NCBI GenBank assembly: GCA_910574475.1
Contig: CAJTAT010000010.1
Span: forward strand, 1-64,000
Direction: 5' to 3'
Source: Clostridia bacterium
GTDB taxonomy: Bacteria; Bacillota; Clostridia; Lachnospirales; Lachnospiraceae
DNA: 64,000 nucleotides
A program made the position numbers and the translations under genes. The notes under the pieces were generated by a model that was given only the letters and a program-made list of their open reading frames with translations, had not been told where the DNA came from and made no database searches. Of the stretch, positions 5,277 through 32,996 are shown in pieces (positions within the stretch are counted from its first letter, which is position 1; the number at the start of each line of letters is the position of its first letter).

Positions 5277-5277
5277 A

Positions 5278-7345: not shown

Positions 7346-7358
7346 ACTTCTCCATTTC

Positions 7359-9101: not shown

Positions 9102-9138
9102 ATTTACATTTATTTCTCCCTCGTTATTTGTCTCTCTT

Positions 9139-10281: not shown

Positions 10282-10350
10282 ATAATTCCCTCTTTATTTA
10301 CTGTACTTTATAAACGTTAATTGTTTCAGAACTTTCAAAAGTTGCCAATC

Positions 10351-12177: not shown

Positions 12178-12234
12178 ACAAATCTCCATTCTAATGTCAA
12201 AGTGAGCAATTTAATCCATATTCTTCCATACTTG

Positions 12235-13311: not shown

Positions 13312-13337
13312 ACTTTAATCTCCTTCTTTGTAAACTC

Positions 13338-13537: not shown

Positions 13538-13557
13538 CTAACTGTTTTATTTTTCGT

Positions 13558-14238: not shown

Positions 14239-14253
14239 CTAAATGTCCTTCTT

Positions 14254-15756: not shown

Positions 15757-15796
15757 TGATCTTTTCTCTCCCTGTGGTCTGTGTAGGTGGTCCAAA

Positions 15797-16921: not shown

Positions 16922-16977
16922 CATTTTCCTCCTCTTCCAATTTAGCCAGTCTTTCATCCTTACTCTTTGAACTTGGG

Positions 16978-17421: not shown

Positions 17422-18466
17422 CAAAATCCTCCCATGTTAGTTTTACGCCGCTGGAAATATCCCGTTTCGCTTTCTTTCCCATCACAGCTTCCCAGTGTAT
17501 GGCCCCTATGCCATCCCCAGGTCTTAAAAGTGTCAAATTCTCGCTGGTTAACACATCCCCAGCCTTGATTTCCACAGCCGCTGTAATACTTCTGTGCATG
17601 ACATTTCGCTGTTCTTCCTCTGCCTTGGTAGGTTTTAATACCGCATTTCCTAGCATAACATGCGCTGTTCGGATTGCCTCTACCCATTCTTTTAATTCAA
17701 CCGGATCTGCAGAAAACCAATGATCTGGTCCGGGCAGATTGTGATCCAGGGTAAAATGTTTTTCAAATACTTTTGCTCCATAAGCGATTGCCAGGACTGC
17801 TGCTGTACTTCCCTGGGTATGATCTGATAAGCCAGGGAGCACTTCTGGAAACTTTTCAGAGATCGTCAATAGTTTCTTTGCATTTACATCCTCTGGCGGT
17901 GTAGGATATTCAGAGGTGCACAACAACAGTGAGACTGGATGCCCTTCTTTTGCCCGAAGCGTTCTTAAGGTAACTCTGATTTCTTCCTCTGTCGCCATAC
18001 CACAGGAAACAATCATGGGAAGACTATATTTCTCATATTTATCAAGCAAAGGTATATTTACAAAGTCATCCGATCCGACTTTGATTGCATCAATCCCAAT
18101 CCGAAGAAGCATCTCAAGCCCCTCAATGCCTGATACAGTAGAAAGAAAGATGATATCCTGCTCCTCACAGAAGCCTTTTATCTCTTTCCATTCCTCTTCA
18201 GAGAATTCGGTACGTTTGAACATTTCGTACTGAGACTCTGTCACCTTCCTCCCCTGGGATTGATAGGTGTACATTTCCTCTTTGTCCTGAATAAACTCTT
18301 CTGTTCGGAAGGTCTGAAACTTTACTGCGTCTACACCAGCCTCTTTTGCTGCAAGGATCATGTCCTTTGCGATACTAAGATCTCCATTGTGATTGATTCC
18401 TGCTTCAGCGATGATAAAGGGATCTGAATCTTTCCCGATTATTTTACTTCCAATTTTAATTCTCAT
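17414..18466 (-). CDS. pseI: Nonulosonic acid synthase (PseI/NeuB/SpsE family)
   Basis: 350 residues. The TIM-barrel NeuB domain starts FIIAEAGINHNGDLSIAKD (residues 17-35) and contains VDAVKFQTF, LCTSEYPTP and the FEKHFTLD segment. A C-terminal SAF (antifreeze-like) domain occupies about residues 290-350 (SITAAVEIKAGDVLT). These enzymes condense phosphoenolpyruvate with an amino sugar to make a nine-carbon nonulosonic acid. Because pseB, pseC and pseG homologues lie in the same operon, pseudaminic acid or a close relative is the expected product. AGAGGG precedes the ATG. Confidence 0.9.
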   Translation of the reverse strand: MRIKIGSKIIGKDSDPFIIAEAGINHNGDLSIAKDMILAAKEAGVDAVKFQTFRTEEFIQDKEEMYTYQSQGRKVTESQYEMFKRTEFSEEEWKEIKGFCEEQDIIFLSTVSGIEGLEMLLRIGIDAIKVGSDDFVNIPLLDKYEKYSLPMIVSCGMATEEEIRVTLRTLRAKEGHPVSLLLCTSEYPTPPEDVNAKKLLTISEKFPEVLPGLSDHTQGSTAAVLAIAYGAKVFEKHFTLDHNLPGPDHWFSADPVELKEWVEAIRTAHVMLGNAVLKPTKAEEEQRNVMHRSITAAVEIKAGDVLTSENLTLLRPGDGIGAIHWEAVMGKKAKRDISSGVKLTWEDFDD

Positions 18467-18497
18467 TTATTACCCTCTAAGTATTTTTTTAGCATCT

Positions 18498-19205
18498 CTA
18501 AGATTTCTGTTTTACATGCTTATTAATTTCATAAAATTCTGGATTTTTTTCCATTACAGTTATGATATCCTCCAACGTACATTCTTTTGGATTTAGCTTT
18601 GAAGCAATTGCATTTATAAGCTTCCAGTCTTCTTCTGTGTCCAATGTAAACCTATATTTCCCCATATCCTTATCCATTTCACAATAATTCACTTTTCCAT
18701 GTTCGTAAATATATGGGGCTACATGTTCATGTTCATATGGTGTTGTCGATTTAAAATAAGCTTCCTCTAAACTATCAAAGGAAAAAACCTCTGTTCCTAA
18801 CCCCAATGGTATCGTTGTTCCGCTGGTTACTAAATCATAATCATTTTGCATAAAAATATTGATTTCATGTTCCACAATCTCTGGATCGATAAACATATTA
18901 TCGGAACAGATCCTTGCAATATCCGTAATCTCATACTTTTTTGCTGCTTTATAATATCTTGACAATACATCATCATTATCTCCCCGATAAACAAGGGCTC
19001 CATATTTTTCACTTTCCGTAACAATCGCATCATCCATATCAAGTGTACTGGTTGCGACTATAATTGCATCCGCGTTTCTGACTTTTTTCAGACGCGAAAT
19101 CACATACCCCAGTACAGAAATGCCATTTACAGTCTTAAGCACTTTCCCTGGAAGCCGTGTAGAACCCATATGTGCCTGAATAATCAATCCAATCTTTTTT
19201 ACCAT
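18498..19205 (-). CDS. spsF: SpsF/NeuA-like cytidylyltransferase
   Basis: 235 residues from the ATG at 19203-19205, which is 9 bp after GGAGG; the ATG at 19212-19214 directly abuts that site. The start overlaps the SDR gene by 7 bp. The nucleotidyltransferase motif QAHMGSTRLPGKVL (residues 9-22) and RICSDNMFIDPE (near residue 100) place it in the SpsF family, which is related to acylneuraminate cytidylyltransferases. It probably activates the nonulosonic acid made by PseI as a CMP-sugar, filling the PseF step. No other CMP-sugar synthetase is seen in the window. Confidence 0.84.
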   Translation of the reverse strand: MVKKIGLIIQAHMGSTRLPGKVLKTVNGISVLGYVISRLKKVRNADAIIVATSTLDMDDAIVTESEKYGALVYRGDNDDVLSRYYKAAKKYEITDIARICSDNMFIDPEIVEHEINIFMQNDYDLVTSGTTIPLGLGTEVFSFDSLEEAYFKSTTPYEHEHVAPYIYEHGKVNYCEMDKDMGKYRFTLDTEEDWKLINAIASKLNPKECTLEDIITVMEKNPEFYEINKHVKQKS

Positions 19206-19996
19206 GCTGTCCATCCTCCATCTACAGCTATATTCTGTCCGTTCACATATTTACTTGCATCAGAAGCAAGAAATACTATGATTCCTTTTAAATCTTCCGG
19301 TTCACCAATACGCTTCAACGGAACTTTCTTTTCCAGATTATGGATAAACCCTTCCATTTTCTGAGTTTCTTTATTGGGAAAAGGCCCTGGGGAAATAGAA
19401 TTCGATCGTATCCCTTTTTCTCCATACACACAGGCAATATATTTGGTAAGCTGTATGACTGCGGCCTTTCCTACACCATAATTTGCAGGATTATTTTCTC
19501 CACTGTTTCCATAAATGCTCATATCCGGCGAAACGAGACCATACATGGATGCAATATTAATTATGTTTCCCGATTTCTGCTGCACCATATATGGAATGGC
19601 TGCCTGTGTTACTCTAAATGCACTATTGATTGTTCCATCTATTCCTTGGTTCCAGGCATCCGTTGTGTAATCCTCCAGACTTTGTACATTTCCTATAAAA
19701 TATGCATTATTGATCAGTACATCTATTCTACCTGTTTTCTCTTGAATAGTTCTAAATACCTTTTGAATGAGTTTAGTATCTGTTATATCAAATGGATAAC
19801 TTTCACAAACAGATCGTGCATATTTATCCTTTAGTTCCTCTGCCTTGGCTTTATTCTTCTGTGTATTCTGTCCAAGAATAAACAGCTCTGCTCCATAAGA
19901 TGCCAAGGCATCGCTCATAGCACTTCCCAGGTATCCAGCACCTCCGGTAATAATTATCGTTTTTCCTCGTAAATCAAATAAACTATGTGAATTCAA
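19199..19996 (-). CDS. SDR oxidoreductase of nonulosonate cluster (TTG start)
   Basis: 265 residues. The start appears to be TTG at 19994-19996, six bases after GGGAGG; the first downstream ATG would delete the cofactor-binding motif. Classical short-chain dehydrogenase features: TGGAGYLG (near residue 17), the structural NNA segment, a catalytic serine in NIASMYG, the YGVGK active site and a C-terminal NIAVDGGW. SDR proteins of this kind (PtmA-like) recur beside legionaminate and pseudaminate genes. Together with the aldo/keto reductase that ends 1 bp before it, it could oxidise and re-reduce a sugar carbon, producing an epimer. The pairing is seen; the reaction is inferred. Confidence 0.85.
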   Translation of the reverse strand: MNSHSLFDLRGKTIIITGGAGYLGSAMSDALASYGAELFILGQNTQKNKAKAEELKDKYARSVCESYPFDITDTKLIQKVFRTIQEKTGRIDVLINNAYFIGNVQSLEDYTTDAWNQGIDGTINSAFRVTQAAIPYMVQQKSGNIINIASMYGLVSPDMSIYGNSGENNPANYGVGKAAVIQLTKYIACVYGEKGIRSNSISPGPFPNKETQKMEGFIHNLEKKVPLKRIGEPEDLKGIIVFLASDASKYVNGQNIAVDGGWTAW

Positions 19997-19997
19997 T

Positions 19998-20864
19998 CTA
20001 TACCTCCCATAGACTTGGATTTAATATCTGCTCGCTGATTCCGTCTGCTATTCCAATCAATGCTTTTCGGCACGCTTCAAATTGATCTGCTTTTTTTACT
20101 ATTTCAAGATTATCCTTTAGCTGTTCTACTGTATCCACACCAAATACAACTTTATAGATCCCTTCATGTGTATAGCTAAATAGCATCGCAGCTTCTTCTA
20201 TAGAAAATCCATAATCATACACTATCGTTCTATACTTTTTTACATACATCTTAGCCGCATCTAATTTACTGGGTATATTATCTGGCTCCATTAAAATAAG
20301 GCCCTGCAAAAAAGAGCTTCTTGCAAAGACCTTTATATTATTTTTTTTAGCCACCTGAAAGAAATCTATATGATCAAGTCGCTGATCAAAAACGTTATAT
20401 GGAATTTGTATATAATCAACTATTCCATCCGAGACTATCTTAAGTGCATCCTGAGGTTCATAAACAGAAACTCCTATATGTTGTGCTAATCTCTGTTCTT
20501 TTATTTTCAATAATTCTGTCAACTGCAGCTTGTCATAATAATTCGAAGCATCATGTAGCAATAGTCCATCAACAGGTTCCTGCCCAAGTCTTGCTAATGA
20601 TTTTTTCATTTCCTCTATAAGTCCTGAATGTATCCTGGCATCTAACTTTGTAATTACATGCATCGTGCCATTATTTAAAACACCAGATTCTCCAATTAGT
20701 TTTTCAGCGCTTCCATATGCGCTTGCAGTATCCAAATATTTAATTCCACTTTTTAGAGCTGCCCGCAGTATCTGATATCCTTCCTTGCTAGTAGGCTGTC
20801 TTTTTATTTGATTATTGATTCCATAATTTAATCCCAGTTGCACCGTACCAAGGCAAAGGTTCAT
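19998..20864 (-). CDS. Aldo/keto reductase family protein
   Basis: 288 residues forming a TIM-barrel aldo/keto reductase. The catalytic tetrad is visible: Asp in YLDTASAYG with the Tyr five residues later, Lys in VITKLD and His in LLLHDA. The NADPH-binding C-terminal part (FARSSFLQGLILM; VVFGVDTVEQLKDNL) is present. The gene lies 19 bp after pseC and 1 bp before the SDR, in the order of the nonulosonate pathway. Aldo/keto reductases are found in several bacterial legionaminate-type clusters, where they are thought to set a stereocentre. The substrate here is probably a nucleotide sugar or a nonulosonate, by context only. Confidence 0.85.
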   Translation of the reverse strand: MNLCLGTVQLGLNYGINNQIKRQPTSKEGYQILRAALKSGIKYLDTASAYGSAEKLIGESGVLNNGTMHVITKLDARIHSGLIEEMKKSLARLGQEPVDGLLLHDASNYYDKLQLTELLKIKEQRLAQHIGVSVYEPQDALKIVSDGIVDYIQIPYNVFDQRLDHIDFFQVAKKNNIKVFARSSFLQGLILMEPDNIPSKLDAAKMYVKKYRTIVYDYGFSIEEAAMLFSYTHEGIYKVVFGVDTVEQLKDNLEIVKKADQFEACRKALIGIADGISEQILNPSLWEV

Positions 20865-20883
20865 TTTCTTCTATACCTTTCTA

Positions 20884-22080
20884 TTATCCACGATAATTTT
20901 CAATAATCTTCTTAACCGCATAAATAACACCCTCTACATCCTCGTCTGTCATCCTGGGATATAGAGGAATACTCATAATTCCCTGATATACTTCCTCTGC
21001 ATTGGGACACAGACCTTTTTTGTAACCTAAATGTTGATAATAAGGGAACCAGTAAACCGGTACATAATGAATCTGGCACTGAATATTCTCTGCTGCCATT
21101 GCATCAAAGAATTCTCTTCGTGTACAACTTAGCTTTGCTAAATCCAACTGGATGATATACAGGTGCCTGCAGGTATCCGATTCTGCTATCTCCTTCTGTA
21201 CAAGAATCTCTGGCAATGATTCAAATGCCTCATTGTATCTTTTTACGATTTCCTTCCTTCTTCCTGCAAATTTATCCAGCTTCTTTAACTGGCTTAAGAG
21301 CAACGCTGCCTGGAAATCTGTCATCCGGTAATTATACCCTAAAGAAACCTGCTCATAATACCAGGGGCCTTCATGAGGCGCTTCCTCCATCTCCTCTTCC
21401 TCATGGGTAATCCCATGGGTATGGGCAAGCACCAGCTTTTTGTAAAACGCTTCACTATTCATTGTGACAGCCCCACCCTCTCCTGATGTAATAGTTTTCA
21501 CCGGATGGAAGGAAAAACAGGTCATATCAGAAAGGCTTCCCACGGGTTGCCCCTCGTACTTCGTTCCTATGGCATGGGCTGCATCTTCAATCAGTATGAG
21601 ATGGTACTTGTCACACAATGCTCGGATTTCTCTAAACTTTACTGCCTGTCCTGTAAAATCCACAGCTATCACGGCCTTTGTCTTTTCTGTTATATGCTCC
21701 TCGATACTTTTGGGAGCGATATTATACGTCTCTGGATCAATGTCTGCAAACACTGGCCTTGCCCCACAATACAATATACAGTTAGCGCTTGCTGCAAAGG
21801 TGAGAGGTGTGGTAATTACCTCATCCCCTGGGCCAATACCTGCTGCTATACAGGCACAGTGTAAGGCTGCTGTCCCGTTGGAAACTGCCACTGCATATTT
21901 GGCTCCGGTATAGTCTGCCAGTGCCTTCTCTAATTCTGTAATTTTCGGCCCGCAGGTGACAAAGTCTCCTGTCAGGACTTTGCTGACAGCCTTTACATCC
22001 TCCTCATCAATCCATTGCCTTCCATAGTATAGTTTCTCTTTTCGAACAGGTGCTCCACCATTGATTGCTAATTTCTCCAT
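20884..22080 (-). CDS. pseC: UDP-4-amino-4,6-dideoxy-N-acetyl-L-altrosamine transaminase
   Basis: 398 residues from the ATG at 22078-22080, which has GAGGAG 13 bp upstream; the ATG seven codons earlier has no ribosome site. It is a PLP-dependent DegT-family enzyme with the PLP lysine in SFHPVKTITSGEGG (near residue 185), VAVSNGTAALHCA near residue 60 and the substrate-loop YNYRMTDFQAAL. It aminates the 4-keto product of PseB in the pseudaminate route. It follows pseB after a 44-bp gap that contains a small hairpin with a T-run. Confidence 0.88.
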   Translation of the reverse strand: MEKLAINGGAPVRKEKLYYGRQWIDEEDVKAVSKVLTGDFVTCGPKITELEKALADYTGAKYAVAVSNGTAALHCACIAAGIGPGDEVITTPLTFAASANCILYCGARPVFADIDPETYNIAPKSIEEHITEKTKAVIAVDFTGQAVKFREIRALCDKYHLILIEDAAHAIGTKYEGQPVGSLSDMTCFSFHPVKTITSGEGGAVTMNSEAFYKKLVLAHTHGITHEEEEMEEAPHEGPWYYEQVSLGYNYRMTDFQAALLLSQLKKLDKFAGRRKEIVKRYNEAFESLPEILVQKEIAESDTCRHLYIIQLDLAKLSCTRREFFDAMAAENIQCQIHYVPVYWFPYYQHLGYKKGLCPNAEEVYQGIMSIPLYPRMTDEDVEGVIYAVKKIIENYRG

Positions 22081-22111
22081 GATACACGTTTTACTCCTCA
22101 TTTTTTCGCAT

Positions 22112-22133
22112 AAAAAAAGAGCCTTTAATGCTC
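22112..22133 (-). terminator. Weak hairpin plus T-run between pseB and pseC
   Basis: Read on the minus strand, GAGC-ATTAAAG-GCTC is followed directly by seven T residues. The stem is only 4 bp and overlaps the pseB stop codon, so it would be a weak intrinsic terminator or attenuator. The operon clearly continues beyond it. Confidence 0.35.
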
Positions 22134-23120
22134 ATCTAAATCTGTTTTAAGCTTTTCTTGTAAATCTTCCACACTCAGCCACTCTGTATTGGTACCAGAA
22201 CTGTATTCAAACTCAGGTTCCACCAATTTTCCTCCTGGAATCACGTCTTTTTCTCCCCACCAATTGTAATGTGGATAAACAATAAAATGCTTTTCATACT
22301 CATAAGTATAAAGAGAATCTTCCCTTGTCACCATAATTTCATGGAGCTTCTCTCCTTCACGGATCCCCACTTCCGGCATCTTGCATCCTGGGAGCATAGC
22401 ATCAGCTAGATCAGTAATTTTAAAAGATGGTATCTTTGAGATAAAAGTTTCGCCGCCTCTGGCCTCTTCTAATGCCTTAATGACCAACTCCACTCCCTGT
22501 TCCAGGCTAATCCAGAAACGTGTCATTCTATAGTCTGTAATGGGCAGTTCCTTTCCACCATTATCGATAATATTCTGAAAGAAAGGAATGACTGAACCAC
22601 GGCTTCCTGCCACGTTTCCATAACGGACTACAGCAAAACGTGTCCCCTCAGCTCCACCATATGCATTTGCCGCGCAGAAGAGCTTATCGGATACCAGCTT
22701 GGTTCCTCCATAGAGGTTCACTGGGTTTACTGCTTTGTCCGTGCTTAATGCCACTACTTTTTTTACTCCTGCCGCAAGGGAAGCATTAATAACATTCATG
22801 GCCCCATTTACATTTGTTTTTATAGCCTCATTGGGGTTATATTCACAAGCCGGAACTTGTTTTAATGCCGCTGCATGAATCACATAATCCACACCCTTCA
22901 TTGCCATTTTCAGTCGTTCTTCATCACGAACATCTCCAATAAAAAAACGCAGCTTATTGTGGTGATCTTTATATTCATTATCCATAATAAACTGCTTGTA
23001 TTCATCTCTAGAATAAATAATTATTTTTTGTGGATTATAATGCTGCAAAACATAATTTACAAAATGATGGCCAAAAGAGCCTGTTCCGCCTGTTACTAAT
23101 ACTGTTTTGTTGTTAAGCAT
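22125..23120 (-). CDS. pseB: UDP-N-acetylglucosamine 4,6-dehydratase (inverting)
   Basis: 331 residues. The NAD(P)-binding motif VTGGTGSFGHHFV is at residues 8-20; STDKAVNPVNLYGGTK holds the active-site region and the tyrosine-lysine pair; RYGNVAGSRGSVIPFF matches PseB/FlaA1-type dehydratases. It converts UDP-GlcNAc to the 4-keto-6-deoxy-L-arabino sugar with inversion at C5, the first pseudaminate step. AGGAG precedes the ATG at 23118-23120. This gene begins the better-conserved, less A+T-rich pse block; the next gene upstream is much more A+T-rich. Confidence 0.93.
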   Translation of the reverse strand: MLNNKTVLVTGGTGSFGHHFVNYVLQHYNPQKIIIYSRDEYKQFIMDNEYKDHHNKLRFFIGDVRDEERLKMAMKGVDYVIHAAALKQVPACEYNPNEAIKTNVNGAMNVINASLAAGVKKVVALSTDKAVNPVNLYGGTKLVSDKLFCAANAYGGAEGTRFAVVRYGNVAGSRGSVIPFFQNIIDNGGKELPITDYRMTRFWISLEQGVELVIKALEEARGGETFISKIPSFKITDLADAMLPGCKMPEVGIREGEKLHEIMVTREDSLYTYEYEKHFIVYPHYNWWGEKDVIPGGKLVEPEFEYSSGTNTEWLSVEDLQEKLKTDLDEH

Positions 23121-23156
23121 AAATTTTTCTCCTATTTTATAGTTATAATTTTTATT

Positions 23157-24557
23157 TTAAGATTTTAAAATCTCTTCCACAATATTTTTTAGTGCGTTAC
23201 TTTTCCATATATACTCTGAATTCACCTTAATGGGGATGTCCTCCATGTCTACAATATATCTATAAATCTCTTCCACATCATTCGTCAACAATGTATGATA
23301 TTGCTTTGAAAATCTTCGCATATCGTCGCCTAATTGAGGACAATCAATAATAACTGTCTTTGTGTTAAATGCAACTCCCTCAAAAAGAGCTGTGGAATCA
23401 ACACCAATTTGCACTGTTGCTTTACTTAATAATTCATATATATTTAAATCGTTTCCCACTATTGAAATTCTAGAATCATGATAGTCCGAATGGATTCTAT
23501 CCCAGCTCAATACCTCATTTGGATGCAGCTTATATATAATTTTATAAGGATTAGAGAGTTTATTTTTTTCCAAAATATCACAAAGCTTCACTGCTGTAGG
23601 ATAAATAATATTTGCATAGGGCCCCTGTGAAATAAAAACAATAAGTCGCTCTTTTCTATTACTCTTATATTGATTTAGACTAGCTTCTAACATAATATTA
23701 CCACATGAGACAAATCGCTCTTTATTTGGATATTTTACACAATTTTTCCAATAGTCTCCAAACATCAACACCTTATCTGGAAAATATTCCAAATGTTCTT
23801 TCTTATAACTATATATAATATCATTTTCATTGGTGTATCCATGTTGTAGCTCAATCACTGATATATTTAAACTATGACATGCTTTTACCATCGCTGCATT
23901 AAATATTTCGTAACACGGGTAAAGTACTACCTTAGCCGGGCGATATTTCTTAAATTTATTTTGGTAATATGATTCTATTATTTTTTCAGAAATAACAGCA
24001 TGAATGATTTTATTTTTTATTAATAAATAAGATACCTCTACTCCCATAAATTTATTGAATTTGTTGTACCAAGTATCTAATTCACATTCGATCGCTCTTC
24101 CTAGCTTTGTAGGGACTGATTGTATCATTTTTATTAAAATACTTCTATGCAAATCCAATGAATCTGAAAACACTATACCACATTTACCTGAAAATGGATA
24201 ATGCATAAACTTGTTTGGCCTGTCAATCATAAAGCAGGCAGTTCCAAATTCCTGAGCTAATTGTTCTGCCTGAGAAATTCTTCTGCGTGCAGCACATATT
24301 ATAGTTTTTCCTTTTGCTAGCTTATAGGATTTTTTAAAAAAAGAATGATAAAGAAGAGAAAATCCCCCCTTTATCATTTTTATCCCTGAATAACTATCTA
24401 TAAAATCTGGATGTCTGTTTTCTATCTTTACCCTTAAATTTAGTACCTCTGTAAATAACGCCATACGAATCAGCTGCCAATAATGAACGCCTGCAATTGA
24501 CTTATCAAACATTTTATGCTGTTCTTCAAAATACAACATTAAATCTGAATCATTCAT
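23157..24557 (-). CDS. GT-B-like transferase, possible nonulosonate transferase
   Basis: 466 residues, no signal peptide and no clear membrane helix. I do not recognise a named family. The C-terminal half has the layout of GT-B transferases acting on surface polymers: IELQHGYTNENDI (about residue 230), YKLHPNEV (about residue 345) and DSTALFEGVAFNT (about residue 400). HP and Ser/Thr-rich motifs in this arrangement recall bacterial sialyltransferases, polysialyltransferases and CDP-glycerol glycerophosphotransferase-like proteins. Its position just upstream of pseB makes transfer of the CMP-nonulosonate a plausible function. It overlaps the upstream flippase gene by 8 bp and is strongly A+T-rich. 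Confidence 0.55.
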   Translation of the reverse strand: MNDSDLMLYFEEQHKMFDKSIAGVHYWQLIRMALFTEVLNLRVKIENRHPDFIDSYSGIKMIKGGFSLLYHSFFKKSYKLAKGKTIICAARRRISQAEQLAQEFGTACFMIDRPNKFMHYPFSGKCGIVFSDSLDLHRSILIKMIQSVPTKLGRAIECELDTWYNKFNKFMGVEVSYLLIKNKIIHAVISEKIIESYYQNKFKKYRPAKVVLYPCYEIFNAAMVKACHSLNISVIELQHGYTNENDIIYSYKKEHLEYFPDKVLMFGDYWKNCVKYPNKERFVSCGNIMLEASLNQYKSNRKERLIVFISQGPYANIIYPTAVKLCDILEKNKLSNPYKIIYKLHPNEVLSWDRIHSDYHDSRISIVGNDLNIYELLSKATVQIGVDSTALFEGVAFNTKTVIIDCPQLGDDMRRFSKQYHTLLTNDVEEIYRYIVDMEDIPIKVNSEYIWKSNALKNIVEEILKS

Positions 24558-25962
24558 TTTCTCTTATCCTTTTATATTGTCTAAAACAACTGTGTGCCAA
24601 AAATAACCCTAATACAACAATTAATATATATCTTAGTTCTATATAGCTGTAAATATAGGTACAAAGGATCACAATTATGATAGCTTCTGACATTCTACAA
24701 AAAATATGTTTATTATCTACTATTTTATAATTATTATATTTTTTTGTACTTAAATAATGAAAAATAACAATAAGTGCATTGCAGATAGCAGTTGTATATG
24801 CTGCTGCAATATATCCCAAAAGTAATATTCCAAAATAATTCATTATAATATTCAAAACGGTTACTACTACTGTAATAACAGAGATCATAAACGTCTTTTT
24901 CTCATAAAATTCTATGTTAACAAAAAAAAGATTTAAAAAATTATAATAGCACCCAAGCATTATGATAGGTATCAAAATTTGAGCATTTTGATATGCAGCT
25001 CCGCCAAGAATCAGGATAATTTCTGGTCCTAACAGACACAGTAGGATAAAGCATAAGGAAAATAGATCTACAAATATTTTAGATACTTCCTTTACTTCGT
25101 CAAATTTATTTTCCGATAATTTTCGATAAAACCATGGAACCCACGCATTATTTAGTGAATTTCTTAAAAGGGAAATAGCCAATGCACATGTGTATACAAC
25201 GCCATAAACAGCTGCATATTCTGAACCGCACATTGTATTTATCATTACTTTATCACTATTTCCTAGGATCATGCTAGCTAATGCATGTGGGACTACAGGT
25301 ATTCCTATTCTTAATGCATATTCTATATATAGTCTATTGATTTTTGCATGCGGCTGTTTAAATATCAATATAGCGATTGCACAACCCCAAATTACACTGT
25401 TAATAAGATTAGCGTAAATAATCATATCAAGCTTATTTTTATCAGAAAAAAAATAAATAAGCATAATTGGAGCAAGAACAGTTGATATTCCATAACCCAA
25501 AGTCAATATTGAGGAAGCTTTATATTTGAATTCGGCTCTTTCTTTAGCTTGATAAATGGGGATTAAAGAATAAACAGCCAAAATAATATATAATGCCCAA
25601 ATATATTTTTCATTAATATTAAACCAATTTGATGTTTTACTATAAAAAAAAATCAGCCATACTCCCGCTGTCATTAGTGGAAACAATACGCTTATGATTG
25701 TAACATTATATACATACGTATTAAATTCTTTATCTGACTTATAATCTGTTCTCGCCCTTAATATACTAGAATCCAAACATAGTGAAAAAAATAATACTAA
25801 TATATTCTGCCATGAAAAAAAATTAGTATATTGCCCAAACTCGCCTTTCGTTAATACTCTTGTATATATTGGAGTTAACAAAACTGTAATACCTTTTGCA
25901 ATTACACTGCTTAAGGTATACCAAATAGCAGAATGAATAGTCTTATAATTTAATTTATTCAT
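24550..25962 (-). CDS. Wzx-type polysaccharide flippase (copy 1 of the operon)
   Basis: 470 residues with 12-14 hydrophobic helices. The N-terminal KGITVLLTPIYTRVLTKGEF (from about residue 19) is the usual start of MOP-superfamily oligosaccharide flippases. It should translocate the undecaprenyl-linked repeat unit for the adjacent Wzy-like polymerase (25966-27267), 3 bp upstream. Like its neighbours it is very A+T-rich. It shares only family-level similarity with the second flippase at 2977-4434, so the two are not a recent duplication. Confidence 0.88.
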   Translation of the reverse strand: MNKLNYKTIHSAIWYTLSSVIAKGITVLLTPIYTRVLTKGEFGQYTNFFSWQNILVLFFSLCLDSSILRARTDYKSDKEFNTYVYNVTIISVLFPLMTAGVWLIFFYSKTSNWFNINEKYIWALYIILAVYSLIPIYQAKERAEFKYKASSILTLGYGISTVLAPIMLIYFFSDKNKLDMIIYANLINSVIWGCAIAILIFKQPHAKINRLYIEYALRIGIPVVPHALASMILGNSDKVMINTMCGSEYAAVYGVVYTCALAISLLRNSLNNAWVPWFYRKLSENKFDEVKEVSKIFVDLFSLCFILLCLLGPEIILILGGAAYQNAQILIPIIMLGCYYNFLNLFFVNIEFYEKKTFMISVITVVVTVLNIIMNYFGILLLGYIAAAYTTAICNALIVIFHYLSTKKYNNYKIVDNKHIFCRMSEAIIIVILCTYIYSYIELRYILIVVLGLFLAHSCFRQYKRIRENE

Positions 25963-25965
25963 TTT

Positions 25966-27267
25966 TTATCTACCTCTATCAGACACAAAGTCTTTTAAAA
26001 AGGCTACATATATCACCACTGCCCATGTAAAATAGTTGGACAAAATTGCTCCTGATGATTGTGAGGAAATTAATATAAATGAAATTCCAAATACAATTTT
26101 CAGCCAAATAATGCGATTTGAATTGATATGTTTTATTGCTCTGAAACCAAACATAATTAATTTTGCATAGCAAAAGATAGCGAAATATCCCATTTCACAT
26201 AAAAATTGTATAGTTATATTATGCATGGACTTAGCTGTTCCCAGAAAAAACTGCGGTTTTTCCAGCATGTATATAGAATTTTGCCATCCAATACCCAAAA
26301 AAAATGAATGAGAAAGCTCTTTTAATCCGAAAATAATTGCATTTGCTCTGACAATCTCAGATCCAAATCCTTTTAGTGGATGAAGCGTAAAAATTGCTTT
26401 CAGTCCCCCTCCCACAAGCTCATTTAATGAAATTGTATAATCTCTAAAATGAAACTCTATTTTTAACATAAATATTGCCACTATTACGCCAAAGACAAAA
26501 AATAATCCTAAAGCAACAAAAAGCCAACTTGATAATCTCACTTTGTTTTGACGATTACATAATGCCTTATAAAAGATGAAAAGTAAAAAAGCCAATACCA
26601 GCCCTAATAAGCTTAGCTTTGCATCATTTACATAAATGATAATAAAAATAATTGCAGCTTTTATCCCATCTTTCCTCTTTTTTAAGAAAAAAAATCTATA
26701 TAAATATATGACTGCCATACATGCTATTGCTTGCGACAGCTCATTTTCATTCCAAAAATAAAATGTAATTGTATGGCCGCGATCCGGCAAATGCGGCATT
26801 GAATATGGAATACTATACTGTATTAATCCAAATATAATAACGACAAGAGTGTTTATATCCAGAAAGGAAAAAAAGCATTTAGAAAAATTTTTTTCTGTAA
26901 TTGTTAAATATTTGATAATAACAAATTCAACCAATAAGTATAACAGAAACATATATCCTGATAAATCAATATGATTATAAAGTATAGAAGCTAATAAACT
27001 ATAACATACAAAGACAGCAAAAAAAACAATTGCATTTTTCATTTGCTTCATATACTTCAAACAGATATACAAAAATATAAAAGGTGAAATGAGCCTATAA
27101 ATTGTCGATGCCCCGCTTTCTGTTAACCTTAATGTCGCGTTCATAAATGATGTTATCAGAGTTATATAACAAAATAATTTTATATAATCTGTTATATTTT
27201 TTATACAATATACTTTAATTTTATTATAGTCTCTTATTTTAACTGTATTATTTAAAATAACTTTCAC
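25966..27267 (-). CDS. Wzy/O-antigen-polymerase-like membrane protein
   Basis: 433 residues with about 10-12 hydrophobic helices and a larger extracytoplasmic loop in the second half, the topology of Wzy polymerases and O-antigen ligases. It lies directly before the Wzx gene, as is usual for a Wzx/Wzy-dependent pathway, and would polymerise repeat units outside the membrane. Sequence conservation in this family is low, so the call rests on topology and position. The start is uncertain: the longest reading begins with GTG at 27265-27267, directly against AGAGG rather than at normal spacing. Confidence 0.72.
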   Translation of the reverse strand: MKVILNNTVKIRDYNKIKVYCIKNITDYIKLFCYITLITSFMNATLRLTESGASTIYRLISPFIFLYICLKYMKQMKNAIVFFAVFVCYSLLASILYNHIDLSGYMFLLYLLVEFVIIKYLTITEKNFSKCFFSFLDINTLVVIIFGLIQYSIPYSMPHLPDRGHTITFYFWNENELSQAIACMAVIYLYRFFFLKKRKDGIKAAIIFIIIYVNDAKLSLLGLVLAFLLFIFYKALCNRQNKVRLSSWLFVALGLFFVFGVIVAIFMLKIEFHFRDYTISLNELVGGGLKAIFTLHPLKGFGSEIVRANAIIFGLKELSHSFFLGIGWQNSIYMLEKPQFFLGTAKSMHNITIQFLCEMGYFAIFCYAKLIMFGFRAIKHINSNRIIWLKIVFGISFILISSQSSGAILSNYFTWAVVIYVAFLKDFVSDRGR

Positions 27268-27283
27268 CCTCTCGTATAAAAAT

Positions 27284-27778
27284 CTAGAAAAAGCATTCCG
27301 CTTCCTTTAAGCTTTTATAATGCTCTTTATCACGATATTTAAAAGGAATAGCCGGATGTCCTCCTGCAATTGCCAATGCTGGAATATCTTTGCATACAAC
27401 ACTTCCCGCCTGTATCACTACTCCCTCTCCAATTGTTACTCCTCCCAGGATAATTACCGCCTCCCCGATCCAGACATTATCACCAATCCTTACTTCCCTT
27501 GAGTAAGAAGTATTATCGTATGGCAGAGCTTCTCCTCCATCATAATTATGAAATGTTGTAAGAATCCTGATGTTTTTTCCTGAATGAAAGTTATTTCCAA
27601 TTACAACATTGCCTTCTCCCGAAATTCTTATTCCATTAAAATGGCAATTGCTTCCTATTTGGGTAGCAGATGTAAATTGACTATAAAAATTGACTCTACA
27701 CCTATTTCCATGTGCAATTCCTCTCAATGAATATAATGTAAAAAACTTTGAAATCAATAATTTAATAAATTCTCTCAT
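27284..27778 (-). CDS. Hexapeptide-repeat O-acetyltransferase
   Basis: 164 residues. Left-handed beta-helix repeats (FNGIRISGEGNVVIGNNFHS, IGDNVWIGEAVIILGG, IGEGVVIQAGSVV) span about residues 45-145, and the C-terminal AGGHPAIPFKYRD is typical of the CysE/LacA/NodL acetyltransferase group. It probably O-acetylates a sugar of the repeat unit, using acetyl-CoA in the cytoplasm. GGGAG precedes the ATG at 27776-27778. It is in the A+T-rich block between a family 2 glycosyltransferase and the polymerase. Confidence 0.83.
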   Translation of the reverse strand: MREFIKLLISKFFTLYSLRGIAHGNRCRVNFYSQFTSATQIGSNCHFNGIRISGEGNVVIGNNFHSGKNIRILTTFHNYDGGEALPYDNTSYSREVRIGDNVWIGEAVIILGGVTIGEGVVIQAGSVVCKDIPALAIAGGHPAIPFKYRDKEHYKSLKEAECFF

Positions 27779-27869
27779 TTATGTATCTCCCAAGCAATAT
27801 TCAATATCTTTTCTTTATATTTAAAACTTCTCGAAAAGTATCTTACAAACCACTGATATTTTCCCCTGC

Positions 27870-28622
27870 TCATTTAATATTAAAAATTTTGATAGCACAC
27901 CAATATCCTATATGAAACATACTTCTAAAAACACTTAAGTGTTCAATATCACGATACAAAATCCAATGATACTTAATTAGTTTCAATTTATTGCTTGAAA
28001 TAGAATTTTCACGAATACGATATTGCATCAGCACGCCTTTCATTCCATATATATATTTCTCTTTCTTAAGCATTTGAAGCCAAAGTGCATCATCATTCCT
28101 TTTTCGAATATTGGGAACCTCAAACTTTCCCATTTTTCTTACATTATACATAACTGTAGAATTACCCACTGGGCAATCTAAAAGAACTCTATTATAATTA
28201 ACTTTTGGCACACTTTCAATGATTCGATTTAACCTTTTTCCTTCCTCATCCATCTGTTCGTATGACGTACAGGTAAATGCTACATCATGATGTTTCATAA
28301 AGATAAGTTGTTTCTCCAATTTATCTTTTATCCATAAATCATCTGAATCCAAAAATGCCATGTATTCGCCATTTGCCAATTTCATTGCTATAGTTCTTGC
28401 GACTGCTGCGCCAGATTGAGTCGTTAAACAATGGTATTTGATTCTTGTATCATCTTTAGAATAATTTTCTACAATTTCTTTTGTATTATCTGTAGAACAA
28501 TCATCTACAATAATCATTTCCCAATTTTGATATGTCTGTGCTTGAACAGAGTCTATCGTTTCCCCTATAAATTTCGCACAGTTATATGTTGGTGTAATAA
28601 TAGAGACCAAACCAGCTTCCAT
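27870..28622 (-). CDS. Family 2 glycosyltransferase
   Basis: 250 residues. The GT-A fold is shown by VSIITPTYNCAKFIGETIDS (residues 6-25), the nucleotide-binding MIIVDDCSTDNT and the metal-binding DXD-type FLDSDDLW near residue 94. There is a hydrophobic patch at the C-terminus but no clear transmembrane anchor. It would add one sugar of the repeat unit on the cytoplasmic face, using a nucleotide sugar. AGGAG precedes the ATG at 28620-28622. Gaps of about 90-100 bp on both sides hold nothing I can recognise. Confidence 0.88.
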   Translation of the reverse strand: MEAGLVSIITPTYNCAKFIGETIDSVQAQTYQNWEMIIVDDCSTDNTKEIVENYSKDDTRIKYHCLTTQSGAAVARTIAMKLANGEYMAFLDSDDLWIKDKLEKQLIFMKHHDVAFTCTSYEQMDEEGKRLNRIIESVPKVNYNRVLLDCPVGNSTVMYNVRKMGKFEVPNIRKRNDDALWLQMLKKEKYIYGMKGVLMQYRIRENSISSNKLKLIKYHWILYRDIEHLSVFRSMFHIGYWCAIKIFNIK

Positions 28623-28720
28623 TTCTTTTTCTCCTACTTTATCAAATCACTTTTATGCAAAATATAAACCTGCATAATGATTTATCAGTAATATATTCAT
28701 CCTGTCATCCTTCAACTGTA

Positions 28721-29410
28721 TTATTTTTTAAACACAGAAAACACCGTCAAAACCATAACCCACATATCCTTCCAGAACCCAACCTCTTCCATCCCTCTTA
28801 AGTTCCACTTCATCTTCTTTGGCAGGATTTCTTCTATATATATTTTGTCTGGATCCTCTGCTCTGTCCAAAAGCTTCGCCTCATCCTTATAATAAATTGA
28901 TGTCAGATTCGTAATCCCTGCTGGTAATAGTAACGTTGCTCTCATCTTAGGCGTATACTCTTTCACATACTTAGGCACCTCCGGCCTCACTCCCACAAAG
29001 GACATATTCCCTTCAAGCACATCGATAAGCTGCGGGATTTCATCCAGCCTCTTATCACGCATTAGTTTCCCTACTCTTGTAATCCTATTGTCACCTTCTA
29101 CTGTCACCAAAGTCCCCTTCTGGTCCGCCTTATTTACCATGGAGCGGAACTTGTGAATCCGAAATCTCTTCCCATACTGAGTCACCCGCACCTGACGGTA
29201 GAATACTGATCCTTTGGAATCTAATTTAATCGCTATGGCTAGTATCACAAATACAGGCGAAAGCAAAAAAAGCAGTATCATGGATACCGCAATATCAAAC
29301 ATTCGCTTTAAAATAAGGCTATTCTTTTTCCTTTGCAAGATTTCATAATACTTCCTGACTTCGTCCACACGCATAAACTGTGGCAGGTCTTCCCATTTTT
29401 TTAACCTCAT
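28721..29410 (-). CDS. Initiating polyprenyl-phosphate sugar phosphotransferase (PglC-like)
   Basis: 229 residues. One membrane-embedded helix follows KRMFDIAVSM (about residues 35-60). The conserved cytoplasmic part contains FRIHKFRSMV, DEIPQLIDVLEGNMSFVGVR and PAGITNLTSIY. The family transfers a sugar-1-phosphate from a UDP-sugar to undecaprenyl phosphate and starts repeat-unit assembly. The short form with one N-terminal helix matches PglC/EpsL-type enzymes rather than WcaJ. The normal VGPRPE reads VGVRPE, a small departure. With the aminotransferase just upstream (29492-30769), a 4-amino-deoxy sugar such as a bacillosamine derivative is a candidate first sugar; this is inferred. Confidence 0.88.
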   Translation of the reverse strand: MRLKKWEDLPQFMRVDEVRKYYEILQRKKNSLILKRMFDIAVSMILLFLLSPVFVILAIAIKLDSKGSVFYRQVRVTQYGKRFRIHKFRSMVNKADQKGTLVTVEGDNRITRVGKLMRDKRLDEIPQLIDVLEGNMSFVGVRPEVPKYVKEYTPKMRATLLLPAGITNLTSIYYKDEAKLLDRAEDPDKIYIEEILPKKMKWNLRGMEEVGFWKDMWVMVLTVFSVFKK

Positions 29411-29491
29411 GCTTCTATCGTTACGCCTCTCTTAGACAACTCTCCACACGTTTGAAAGATTCTCTGTCAACAACCTCATTGCTTGCGGGAA

Positions 29492-30769
29492 TCAACTGAT
29501 ATATTCCTTCACAATCTCACCATACTTCTCCATAATATATTCCACTTCTTCATCCCTAAGCTTCGTATGCAGCGGCAGTGTTACCTCATTTTCGAACATC
29601 CGAAAGCTTTCCGGGTAGTCCCCGATCTGAAAGCCCAGTCTCTTATAAGCCGTATGCATGGGTAACGGCTTATAATGTACATTTGCCGATACTCCTTCTT
29701 TTGCCAGCTTTTCTATGATCTCCTGCCGTTCCTCTAGCCCTATCCCCGGTATCCGGGTCATATAGAGATGGCCCGAAGAAACATGCTCTTTCGTGAAGTG
29801 TGGCAATACCTCCACTCCCACAGGCTTTAGTCTCCGGTCATATCTCTCAATAATCTCCCTGCGCCGTTTCAGCATCTTGGGGTATCGGTCAAACTGAGCC
29901 AGGCCAATGGCTCCCATGATATCGGTCATATTACACTTATACCAGGGCCCTACAATGTCATATTCCCAAGCTCCCAGCTTTGTCTTGGCAAGGGCATCCT
30001 TGCTCTGTCCATGGAGGGAAAAGAGCTGCAATTGATGATAGATTTCCTCATCATTCACTCCCTCTATCTTCCAGGTCAGGGCTCCTCCCTCTGCTGTGGT
30101 AAAATTCTTCACCGCATGGAAGCTGAAGTTCGTAAAGTCTGCAATGGAGCCAATCCTTCTTCCCTTATAAGAAGCTCCCAGAGCGTGAGCTGCATCCTCT
30201 ACAATGGCGATCCGTCCTATAGCCTTCTGAAGCCGGTTAGAAGGATGAAATAATCCCTTCTTTCGGTTTACTATCTCTAAGATCCTGTCATAGTCGCAGG
30301 GAATCCCTCCCACATCAATGGGAATAATCGCTTTTGTGTGCTCATTAATAGCCTGTTCCAAAGCATCATAATCCATTTCCAGACTGTCTTTCTGGCAGTC
30401 CACCAGGATAGGTTTGGCTCCTACATGGCAGATAACAGAAGCTGAGGCCGTATACGTATATGCACAGGTAATCACCTCATCTTCTTCACTTCCAAAGCTT
30501 CCATCCATCCCATAAGAATCTCTGCCGATTCCCAGGAGTCTTAAACTCATCTCCCCTGCCGCTGTCTGGCTGTTGAGGCAGACACACCGATTGACTCCTA
30601 CATAATCTGCCAGCAGATTTTCCAGCTTCTTTACCTTTGGCCCAGTCGTAATCCACCCGGAGTGCAGGGTATCTATTACCTCATCAATCTCCTCCTCCGA
30701 AATGTCAGGAGGAGAAAACGAAATATTCATTTTCCTGTCCGTCAAAGCGTTGTTACCATTAAGCTCCAT
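29492..30769 (-). CDS. DegT/DnrJ/EryC1 family sugar aminotransferase
   Basis: 425 residues from the ATG at 30767-30769, six bases after GGAG. PLP-dependent fold with the lysine in SFHAVKNFTTAEGG (near residue 225), VEDAAHALGASYKGR before it and a CNMTDIMGAIGLAQF segment. It is longer than usual owing to an insert of about 25 residues around NRKKGLFHPSN. It makes a 4-amino-4,6-dideoxy nucleotide sugar from a keto precursor. It sits between the second NusG paralogue and the initiating transferase, an arrangement that suggests it makes the first sugar. No matching 4,6-dehydratase other than pseB is in the window. Confidence 0.86.
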   Translation of the reverse strand: MELNGNNALTDRKMNISFSPPDISEEEIDEVIDTLHSGWITTGPKVKKLENLLADYVGVNRCVCLNSQTAAGEMSLRLLGIGRDSYGMDGSFGSEEDEVITCAYTYTASASVICHVGAKPILVDCQKDSLEMDYDALEQAINEHTKAIIPIDVGGIPCDYDRILEIVNRKKGLFHPSNRLQKAIGRIAIVEDAAHALGASYKGRRIGSIADFTNFSFHAVKNFTTAEGGALTWKIEGVNDEEIYHQLQLFSLHGQSKDALAKTKLGAWEYDIVGPWYKCNMTDIMGAIGLAQFDRYPKMLKRRREIIERYDRRLKPVGVEVLPHFTKEHVSSGHLYMTRIPGIGLEERQEIIEKLAKEGVSANVHYKPLPMHTAYKRLGFQIGDYPESFRMFENEVTLPLHTKLRDEEVEYIMEKYGEIVKEYIS

Positions 30770-30792
30770 CCTTATCTCCTCAATTCCAAATC

Positions 30793-31308
30793 TCAATCCC
30801 CTTCAAGCCGGATCCCCATCAAAATCTCCCGATCCCGGCCAAATAAATGTACCCGAATAATCACATACCTTAACCGGATCCGCTTCTTTACTACTCTATC
30901 TAAATACCTTTCTAAGGGCTTCCCACATTCCACAATCTTTCCCTCTTCATCTACTTCCACAGGGGAAAGCCTTACTGTATACTCCTTATCTCCATTCAAC
31001 AGCTCCTTTAAAAACTCCTCCTCTTCCATCGATACCGGGTAAAACTCCTCTTCCTCTTTTCCCAATATCTTTGTATAGGAAGATACCCGCTTCAACTGCT
31101 GATACAATTCCCCGGGATTCCTTGTGGATACAAACACATATCCCGGAAACAGCCGTTCCACATGTACCTTACACGCCCCCTCAATCCTCCAGACTGCCTC
31201 CCGCTTCAAGAGAAAGCACTCCTCATAAACACTTTTGTCCACCATCCTTCGAATACTCTCGATTGCCTCTTCCTCATTCCCTGTGATGGTCTGTATGGCA
31301 TACCACAT
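30793..31308 (-). CDS. NusG-family antiterminator, LoaP-like (second of two)
   Basis: 171 residues from the ATG at 31306-31308, giving the usual N-terminus MWYAIQTITGNEE. An upstream in-frame GTG is also possible. The NGN domain includes FPGYVFVSTRNPGELYQQL (residues 56-74); a diverged KOW-like C-terminal part (about residues 120-171) ends REILMGIRLEGD. NusG paralogues of the LoaP/UpxY/RfaH kind head long biosynthetic operons and let RNA polymerase read through internal terminators. This one begins a 31-kb run of same-strand genes and follows an intrinsic-terminator-like hairpin at 31403-31435. The gene 3' end lies 23 bp before the aminotransferase start. Confidence 0.85.
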   Translation of the reverse strand: MWYAIQTITGNEEEAIESIRRMVDKSVYEECFLLKREAVWRIEGACKVHVERLFPGYVFVSTRNPGELYQQLKRVSSYTKILGKEEEEFYPVSMEEEEFLKELLNGDKEYTVRLSPVEVDEEGKIVECGKPLERYLDRVVKKRIRLRYVIIRVHLFGRDREILMGIRLEGD

Positions 31309-31402
31309 GTTCTGCTTCCCTTTCCTCACTCAGCTATCCTTGCTTGTCCGTTTCCTTTAGACGCTTTCCTTGATACAGATCCTTTCGGACATTTCTATCC
31401 AT

Positions 31403-31546: not shown

Positions 31547-32074
31547 CTAACTCTTCGACACAATCTCCAATCCCACCTGCATCTCCCGAAACCGTCCCAT
31601 GGACGCCATCCCTACTCTCGCGATCCGCTTGTGACGGTCAATCTTTCGAATCAAGCCTTCTTTTCCCCGCAAAGGCCCTTCTGTCACCACGGTCTGTCCA
31701 TCCCGGATATATCCTCGGGACATCTGAGAATGATGGCCAGCCCCGCAGAGCATACGAAGGAAGGCCTCTTCCTCCTGTTCCACCCGAACCAGTTTCCCAT
31801 CACTTTCCAACACAGAGAGCACCTTTGAATATCTCTTTAGCTCTTCTGTCAACTTATCCTCATCTCTGCTTTCCAGAAACAGATAATGAGGAAACAGTGG
31901 ATTACGCTCCAGATGCCATGCCCCCTTATAGCGGCGCATGCGGTCACAAGTAAAGACAAAGGCATCTTCCAAAGCCTCTTTGGTCAAATGTTGCTTACAG
32001 GCGTAGAGCAACTCCTCTTCCTTTTGATTGGGACTATAGAGTACGTACCAGATATGAAGGACCCCTTTCTGCAA
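31547..32074 (-). CDS. NusG-family antiterminator, LoaP-like (first gene of the operon)
   Basis: Up to 175 residues. The NGN domain (WYVLYSPNQKEEELLYACK; NPLFPHYLFLESRDEDKL) is followed by a well-formed KOW domain (VVTEGPLRGKEGLIRKID). This is a specialised NusG paralogue of the LoaP/UpxY type, expected to act on the polysaccharide operon that follows. The start is unusual. The only standard in-frame initiator is TTG at 32072-32074, with no ribosome site; the family's normal start (Met-Trp-Tyr-Val) corresponds to an ATC codon at 32051-32053, which lies eight bases after AAAGGGG. The invertible promoter segment ends only about 47 bp upstream. Confidence 0.83.
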   Translation of the reverse strand: MQKGVLHIWYVLYSPNQKEEELLYACKQHLTKEALEDAFVFTCDRMRRYKGAWHLERNPLFPHYLFLESRDEDKLTEELKRYSKVLSVLESDGKLVRVEQEEEAFLRMLCGAGHHSQMSRGYIRDGQTVVTEGPLRGKEGLIRKIDRHKRIARVGMASMGRFREMQVGLEIVSKS

Positions 32075-32120
32075 TGGTTGGCATGCCTGCTGTAAAGCTA
32101 AATTGAAACATGCAACTTTT

Positions 32121-32143
32121 TCGTAGAGTAACCTATTCTACGA
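32121..32143 (+). repeat. Left inverted repeat of the putative invertible promoter
   Basis: The 20-mer TAGAGTAACCTATTCTACGA (32124-32143) is, apart from one base, the reverse complement of 32362-32381; over 23 bp the two sides agree at 21 positions. The repeat is itself a dyad, with TCGTAGA and TCTACGA arms around a 9-bp centre, as expected for a site-specific recombinase site. It lies 47 bp from the first codon of the NusG paralogue. Confidence 0.85.
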
Positions 32144-32361
32144 ACAGAAAAGGAAATATTTAAATGAATCTGTTAAAACTTGGGATTTTTCAAGAAATTT
32201 AGAAGCTATTAGTAACCATTATTTGTATTTGTCTTGTAAATTTTAGGAATAAAAACAAGATATAACATAGAATACCGTGAAAAAAATTAGAATTCTTATT
32301 GAAAATCTCGATAGATCTGGTTATAATAGTAAACGTTGAAATAGAATTCAGCATTTTACAA
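32144..32361. other. Putative invertible DNA segment (promoter switch)
   Basis: A 218-bp A+T-rich segment bounded by the 23-bp inverted repeats. It contains no gene but holds one near-consensus sigma-A promoter pointing right (32299-32327). No comparable promoter is seen on the minus strand inside it or between it and the polysaccharide operon. In the present orientation the polysaccharide operon would therefore lack its promoter; after inversion the promoter would sit at about 32178-32206 pointing left, with an RNA leader of roughly 100 nt. No recombinase gene is in the window, so the enzyme would act in trans. Nothing else is recognised in this part of the 590-bp gap. Confidence 0.72.
32299..32327 (+). 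promoter_or_regulatory. Sigma-A-type promoter inside the invertible segment
   Basis: TTGAAA (32299-32304), a 17-bp spacer, then a perfect TATAAT (32322-32327). Transcription should start near 32334 and run right, through the right inverted repeat, toward the Spo0A-C-like gene and feoAB. This is among the best promoter matches seen in the window. Confidence 0.82.
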
Positions 32362-32384
32362 TCGAAGAATAGGTTACTCTAAGA
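32362..32384 (+). repeat. Right inverted repeat of the putative invertible promoter
   Basis: Contains AGAATAGGTTACTCTA (32366-32381), the exact reverse complement of 32124-32139. Mismatches with the left copy lie only in the outer arms, so the likely strand-exchange centre is identical in both. The flanks show no target-site duplication of the kind a small transposon would leave. Confidence 0.85.
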
Positions 32385-32553
32385 AAATACAAACCTTTCT
32401 TACACATTCTAATCATCCTTTTTCTTCATTAATACTACTACATTATTTTCTATATGAAATCTTTTAACTCTATAAAATAGTATCTCCTAAAATTTTTTAC
32501 ATTTTCCTGTGATTTTACAATTCTATTTCGTATTAGTTTTGTATCTATTTTTG

Positions 32554-32663: not shown

Positions 32664-32996
32664 ATGAAAAAGGAATTTCAGGCTACCATGTATTCCATGG
32701 GAGTACTACATCATTACTGTGGTTACAGCTACTTTGAAGAAGCTGTGTTTCTGGTCATAGAGAATCCAGAACGACTACAAAGTATCCAAAAAGAAATCTA
32801 TCTTCCAATTGCTATAAAATATCATACAAATGTGGCAAATGTAGAAAAGAATATTCGTACAGTTCGAGACGTAATGATGAAAAATGGTGGTAGAGAAATT
32901 CTGGTAGAAATCAGTGGTTGTGGATTTTGGAAAGACAAAAAACCTTATCCAAAAGAATTAATTGAAATCTTTGCAGAGCATTTTGCCAAGAAATAA
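32664..32996 (+). CDS. Stand-alone Spo0A C-terminal-domain-like DNA-binding protein
   Basis: 110 residues; GGAGG precedes the ATG. The protein matches the C-terminal DNA-binding domain of Spo0A: a YSYFEEAVFLVIENPERLQ segment (residues 20-38), IYLPIAIKYHTNVANVEKNI in the position of the recognition helix (residues 45-64), and a conserved end with PKELIEIFAEHF. The phosphoacceptor receiver domain of Spo0A is absent, so it should bind DNA without phosphorelay control or act by dimerising or competing. It is the first plus-strand gene after the invertible promoter, which in this orientation points at it. Tandem 0A-box-like sites lie upstream. Autoregulation or control of the polysaccharide switch is inferred. 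Confidence 0.78.
   Translation: MKKEFQATMYSMGVLHHYCGYSYFEEAVFLVIENPERLQSIQKEIYLPIAIKYHTNVANVEKNIRTVRDVMMKNGGREILVEISGCGFWKDKKPYPKELIEIFAEHFAKK

Follow-up and report, generated by a model that had tools for sequence, protein, structure and literature searches.

In Bacteroides, capsule operons are preceded by a short invertible promoter and begin with the gene of a NusG paralogue (UpxY). The promoters are inverted in trans by the Mpi recombinase at several loci per genome, most of which are OFF at once. The locus described here, from a Lachnospiraceae genome, resembles the Bacteroides arrangement in its short, putatively invertible promoter, in having a NusG paralogue as the first gene, and in the presence of several such loci per genome. 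It differs in phylum and in antiterminator, the first gene encoding LoaP instead of UpxY (41.6 bits to the UpxY model NF033644, under the cut-off of 100).

In passages of a 2025 inverton survey, UpxY genes are described as "regulatable" beside invertons, and inverton group 139 of hCom2 (33 invertons, 32 from Clostridia) is tied to invertase group 35 of tyrosine recombinases (PMC11892184). An example from Clostridium sp. D5 has 26-bp repeats that are, from the coordinates, 205 bp apart, and it changes orientation over passages (PMC11892184). These dimensions agree with those of our cassette, and group 139 and the loaP-linked cassettes may well be the same family. The reference sequence for comparing our sites with the group 139 motif is TTCGTAGAGTNNNNNACTCTACGAA. 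LoaP appears nowhere in the main text of that survey.

Other systems share single elements with the present one. In the relevant passages of PMC5903667, inversions in Clostridioides difficile depend on a recombinase (RecV) that does not adjoin the sites, as proposed here, whereas the repeat is common to only two sites; in Providencia stuartii the invertible segment encloses the recombinase, as do the 1.2-1.7-kb pairs described below. NusG is mentioned nowhere in that paper, and its passages on these systems contain no loaP-type polysaccharide operon. In Eggerthella lenta, according to parts of a preprint (PMC13174815), inversion shifts capsule loci relative to loaP and involves a conserved 16-bp repeat, but the inversions are of megabase size, with no promoter flip and no recombinase adjoining the breakpoints. 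LoaP antitermination is known from Bacillus, and the gene is often situated next to operons for secondary metabolites or polysaccharides, as stated in sections of PMC12691694. Among titles and starts of abstracts, with subscription papers outside the search, we found no description of loaP-linked promoter inversion, and no paper in the same range of literature that contains both LoaP and "invertible" as whole words.

Results

A promoter cassette at the head of a loaP-polysaccharide operon

The window is the whole stretch of 64,000 nucleotides that was analysed. The features of interest are as follows.

703..30796, minus strand: surface-polysaccharide genes (profile matches)
30793..31329, minus strand: second LoaP-like NusG paralogue (NF033641 106.4 bits, cut-off of 125 not reached; PF02357 above cut-off)
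31547..32074, minus strand: operon-leading gene for the antiterminator LoaP, a NusG paralogue (NF033641 141.1 bits, cut-off 125)
32120..32144, no strand: putative recombination site on the left (25 bp; centre AACCT, with one of the 20 arm positions deviating from the family consensus)
32145..32360, no strand: putatively invertible interior of type A, 216 bp, without an ORF of 80 aa or more
32299..32327, plus strand: predicted promoter TTGAAA-17-TATAAT, directed away from loaP (OFF; 11 of 12 consensus positions)
32361..32385, no strand: putative recombination site on the right, in inverted orientation (centre AGGTT, with four of the 20 arm positions deviating from the consensus)
32664..32996, plus strand: 110-aa protein with the Spo0A C-terminal DNA-binding domain only (PF08769 76.2 bits)

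A sequence-only reading of this DNA had described an inverted repeat with 21 of 23 positions alike and a perfect 16-bp core. This repeat is present at 32121-32143 and 32362-32384, and a repeat finder reports it with a greater length of 26 nt (92%, 218 nt apart). Scored with match +1, mismatch -2, and a gap of 100-600 bp, it reaches 20, as against 12 for the runner-up in the 64-kb window and 15 for the best of 60 copies of the window generated by a first-order Markov model, all of which it exceeds. The dyad around a 9-bp centre that the same reading assigned to each repeat is perfect in the left repeat (TCGTAGA-9-TCTACGA) and carries two mismatches in the right repeat. It is the two palindromic arms of the repeat, rather than the core, that are informative. 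Across the family, the 25-bp sites have the formula TTCGTAGAGT-N5-ACTCTACGAA, in which the arms are palindromic. In the window, the centre of one site is the exact reverse complement of the other; the right site counts as one of the more diverged.

The earlier description of a single near-consensus promoter, pointing right and OFF, agrees with our analysis, the best leftward matches within 31900-33400 reaching 9 of 12 positions. Consensus-count matches in this interval are at chance level (7 versus 5.0 ± 2.1 in shuffles); the call is supported by the type A cassettes, since TTGAAA-17-TATAAT is found unaltered in each of the 14. Inversion would place the promoter at 32178-32206 on the minus strand by arithmetic (64505 - x), the position given earlier. 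A search of 30500-33500 against Rfam matched nothing at E up to 1, and blastn with 31547-33000 matched nothing in the plasmid collection.

The interiors of 28 cassettes were examined, and the other 14 are of type B, with TTTACG or TTTACC, a spacing of 17, and TATGAT (TAAGAT once). Each of the 14 type B leaders (e.g., L114, L264, and L112) folds into a stem-loop located after the -10 box and before the site. Folding of their alignment gives -4.85, versus -0.04 ± 0.24 with shuffled columns. In one type B leader, UUCG is seen by eye in the loop. The LoaP-recruiting RNA hairpin of B. velezensis is of the UNCG type, according to a passage in PMC12691694. The type B stem-loop could be a LoaP recruitment hairpin. 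Among type A leaders, the window's kind, we identified no common stem-loop and no LoaP RNA hairpin.

The NusG paralogue claimed at the operon head is present and is LoaP, not UpxY. The surface-polysaccharide operon is borne out by glycan-gene profile matches within 703..30796, comprising three DegT-type aminotransferases, an initiating sugar transferase, glycosyltransferases, two flippase-like proteins, NeuB, a cytidylyltransferase, a BCCT transporter, LicD, and PEP mutase, together with a Wzy_C match slightly below cut-off. Among the operon proteins scanned, those at 7359-9101, 10351-12189, 15797-16957, and 23157-24557 have no Pfam match. NeuB, the cytidylyltransferase, LicD, the BCCT (choline-type) transporter, and PEP mutase occur together in 703-20864, which suggests that the operon product contains nonulosonic acid and a phosphocholine or phosphonate decoration.

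To the right of the cassette, two TGTCGA-like motifs, which we take to be 0A-box-like, precede the Spo0A_C-like gene (32664-32996). In the OFF orientation, this gene lies downstream of the predicted promoter and is followed by feoA and feoB. The cassette might therefore be a two-way switch, whose promoter when OFF drives the Spo0A_C-like gene and perhaps feoAB. The gene is on the plus strand and begins 337 bp past the -10 box, no terminator match lies within 31900-33400, and a paralogue of the gene occupies the same place beside a second cassette of the genome (C3). Such an arrangement is not family-wide, as the far-side gene faces the cassette at C1, C17, G008_C29, and G028, and we consider a two-way switch rather unlikely.

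The cassette belongs to a family with palindromic-arm sites

The genome contains at least six cassettes: that of the window (C10), C3, C1, C6a, C6b, and C17. C3 and C1 were found by DNA search, and C6a, C6b, and C17 by arm searches. All six adjoin surface-glycan genes, and loaP is present at four. The targets are loaP and a DegT aminotransferase at C17 and C6b; CpsB, Wzz, and a tyrosine kinase at C1; GtrA and DUF6044 at C6a; and, at C3, loaP1 and loaP2, which were found by search, with the genes behind them named by eye only.

Every inverted pair listed has 5-bp centres that are exact reverse complements of one another, where the pairing rule itself required agreement at 4 of 5 positions or better. 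Five centre forms occur at the six loci, AACCT being common to C10 and C3. The flanks of C10 and C3 are 95% (left) and 84% (right) identical, and the likeness ends at the arms; the DNA search that aligned the flanks gave no match between the interiors. The pattern is as if recombination had swapped the interiors there.

A search for further copies of the core had been proposed. At 0-1 mismatches, the 14-mer core GAGTAACCTATTCT matches five places, every one of them a cassette site; when up to two mismatches are allowed, the matches are no commoner than in the reversed control (14 per strand versus 23 and 15), and core-based searching was dropped. The palindromic-arm search gave 17 matches per strand versus 9 in the control, with some noise at three mismatches. 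Cassettes are also found in sister species of the same genus, in another genus of the family, and in other Lachnospiraceae. Arms with at most one mismatch occur in 17 of 397 family genomes. A 98-nt query of promoter plus site matched 30 of the 397 at E 0.01; in addition to its own genome, the query retrieved promoter cassettes in G352 and G028 and a recombinase pair in G237, and the remaining rows are short matches.

In 28 of the 31 tabulated cassettes, loaP lies within 1.9 kb and reads away from the cassette, part of the set having been retrieved with a query that contains the start of loaP. The constant position of the cassettes near loaP led us to set aside the idea of a mobile element with terminal repeats.

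Two variants were noted in passing. At C6b (L153:7760-9136), a diverged TnpB-like protein (22 bits to the IS200 TnpB model, cut-off 425) is encoded between the putative invertible promoter and loaP; it has orthologues in L260, L264, and L266 and is 63-83% conserved in four species, which hints at a domesticated role. A class of 421-432-bp cassettes has the same arms and TTGACA promoter matches (L160, L164, L165, L170, L173, and L223), of which L165 adjoins loaP and is ON.

Cassettes occur in both orientations

An absence of variation in orientation among close relatives had been named as evidence against an invertible promoter; for the family, such variation is found. At a locus orthologous between sister species, the interior in G007 is 92% identical to that in G005 but reverse-complemented, and the neighbour protein is 82.5% identical. 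The window genome's own C6b has G005's orientation and is 83% identical, and at the C6b-type locus of a fourth orthologue, G009, the interior gave no match. At C17, upstream of loaP, the assembly contains two copies of the cassette that face opposite ways on either side of one N. The resulting palindrome is perfect over 235 bp per arm, and the loaP-side copy is ON. A mixed population is the simplest source of this double assembly.

The orientation table has 31 rows, three of them without loaP in reach (C1, C6a, and G005_C11a). Among the 28 loaP-linked cassettes, 21 are OFF and 7 are ON, with C17 counted by its ON copy. The view, formed by eye on 13 of 13 cassettes, that all are OFF is wrong for this wider set. 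Promoter calls are narrow for G008_C10 (12 versus 11) and G015_C139 (10 versus 9). The table leaves out L225, the 176-180-bp pairs (L197, L203, L214, and L262), the recombinase-enclosing pairs, and the 394-432-bp pairs except L165. In L225, a short piece, the promoter faces away from the side that resembles loaP flanks, so that its orientation is probably OFF. The promoters of C1 and C6a are likewise directed away from their glycan genes.

Genomes with at least three tabulated loaP cassettes have at most one ON each: C17, in both orientations, in the window's genome, none of four in G005, one of four in G007, none of three in G008, and none of four in G352. In single-cassette genomes, the cassette is ON in G004, G009, G028, G310, and G027, and OFF in G015 and IMSAGC_019. 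Three of these ON cassettes (in G004, G009, and G028) have a stand-alone-clade recombinase (see below) at most 1.5 kb away.

Sites are also found within 130 bp of a contig end more often than expected (11 versus 0.89, over 57 public stretches with an exact site). The place of the contig end is determinable for 25 of the 57, and the comparison over all 57 is the fair one because the 25 favour short contigs and last pieces. The excess may reflect assemblers meeting both orientations, and repeats could add to it.

Together, the orthologues, C17, and the ON/OFF split establish, at the level of assembled sequences, that the cassette family inverts, and we infer the same for the window's own copy, which is seen in the OFF orientation only, in one assembly. 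Alternatively, the window copy could have decayed and now be locked OFF, with flipping continuing at the genome's other copies. Four arm mismatches in its right site, compared with one in the left, and the sighting of OFF alone would fit this; against it, the window's two centres have remained exact reverse complements, and other cassettes also show the outer-arm variant TTCTTAGAGT. A locked copy is accordingly improbable, although the divergence of the right site (4 of 20 arm positions) means that the window copy may flip slowly or be decaying. A static element that does not invert (an RNA or DNA hairpin, a binding site, or a small transposable element) would explain the dyad within each site, but is very hard to reconcile with opposite orientations between orthologues and within one assembly at C17, nor does a scattered element fit the constant position of loaP.

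Tyrosine recombinases are linked to the sites

A search of the genome for a recombinase, as proposed earlier, led to two members of one tyrosine recombinase family.

G000:C9:140691-141752: candidate tyrosine recombinase of the stand-alone clade (PF00589 70.8 bits, cut-off 27.1)
C2:185251-186492: second recombinase of the same family, inside its own inverted pair with variant arms

At all 22 loci with inverted pairs of 1.2-1.7 kb, the pair encloses a tyrosine recombinase gene of this family (split at one, L202). An outward promoter match is usually present on the 5' side of the gene. Tyrosine recombinases share the conserved residues R...HxxR...H...Y. In accordance, R184, H294, R297, H320, and Y330 are invariant in 10 aligned sequences. 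Phage-integrase genes beyond these two are present as well, the genome having 20 PF00589 matches in all.

The stand-alone clade has seven rows and a support of 100/100, and all seven genomes (the window's own and G004-G009) contain sites. The orthologues of the C9 recombinase in G004-G008 are 66-71% identical to it, and that in G009 is in two pieces. In a pattern search of nine other genomes of the genus, with G002 and G010-G014 left out, sites occur in seven (G004-G009 and G015) and not in G001 or G003. Six of the seven site-bearing genomes have a C9 orthologue, and G015, G001, and G003 have none; G015, whose genome is 83% complete, thus has a cassette and no close orthologue.

The distance between the stand-alone recombinase gene and a cassette is 14 bp in G004 and about 0.3 kb in G009; in G028 it is 1.4 kb, with one gene between. 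In the stretches fetched, no site adjoins the C9 recombinase or its orthologues in G005-G008. The neighbours of the C9 recombinase resemble polysaccharide genes by eye, and the nearest has no NCBIfam match. The window's switch is probably served by a recombinase encoded elsewhere in the genome.

The C2 recombinase (L151:5742-9116) is flanked by two divergent genes with a common N-terminus, for proteins of 455 aa (TnpB-like) and 180 aa, and a third site lies 0.75 kb further. Self-enclosed recombinase-promoter elements occur in L180, L194, L204, L205, and L209, in MAGs named Thermoflexaceae, Oscillospiraceae, Erysipelotrichaceae, Paludibacteraceae, and Oscillibacter, by horizontal transfer or misbinning.

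Discussion

We consider it highly probable that the window contains a phase-variation switch, in which a recombinase acting in trans flips the promoter of the loaP-polysaccharide operon. In the proposed mechanism, a tyrosine recombinase, most likely that at C9:140691-141752, would recombine the two inverted 25-bp sites and so flip the intervening 216 bp. When facing loaP, the promoter would drive loaP1, loaP2, and the polysaccharide operon of about 31 kb, with LoaP helping the polymerase through the long operon. In the other orientation, as here, the promoter would face away and the operon would be silent. This recombinase would also act at a minimum of five further glycan loci in the genome, and where the centres differ, recombination would be confined within a pair.

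A more extended reading is put forward tentatively, and we think it less likely to hold than to fail: one stand-alone recombinase serves many loaP-linked promoters, the 5-bp centres act as "barcodes", loci are ON one at a time, and the system descends from a self-flipping element. The barcodes would keep flips within a locus, and loci with the same barcode, such as C10 and C3 with AACCT, could swap promoter interiors. The common source of the stand-alone enzyme and of the promoter-only cassettes would be an element that once held both a recombinase and an outward promoter. However, centres are also shared between two loci in G005 and between two in G007.

The sequence-only reading had seen the Bacteroides architecture in a Firmicute. 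The invertible promoter, its OFF orientation, and the polysaccharide operon stand, with LoaP in the place of UpxY. The logic of the Bacteroides systems, in which a promoter flip is followed by NusG-paralogue-aided transcription of a long capsule operon, thus appears to be present in Lachnospiraceae with a different antiterminator, which may indicate that the switch was assembled independently. With a site that can be searched for, and with the candidate enzyme and the target loci now named, phage escape, immune recognition, and strain differences become directly testable in these gut bacteria. The function of LoaP at polysaccharide operons likewise becomes testable locus by locus.
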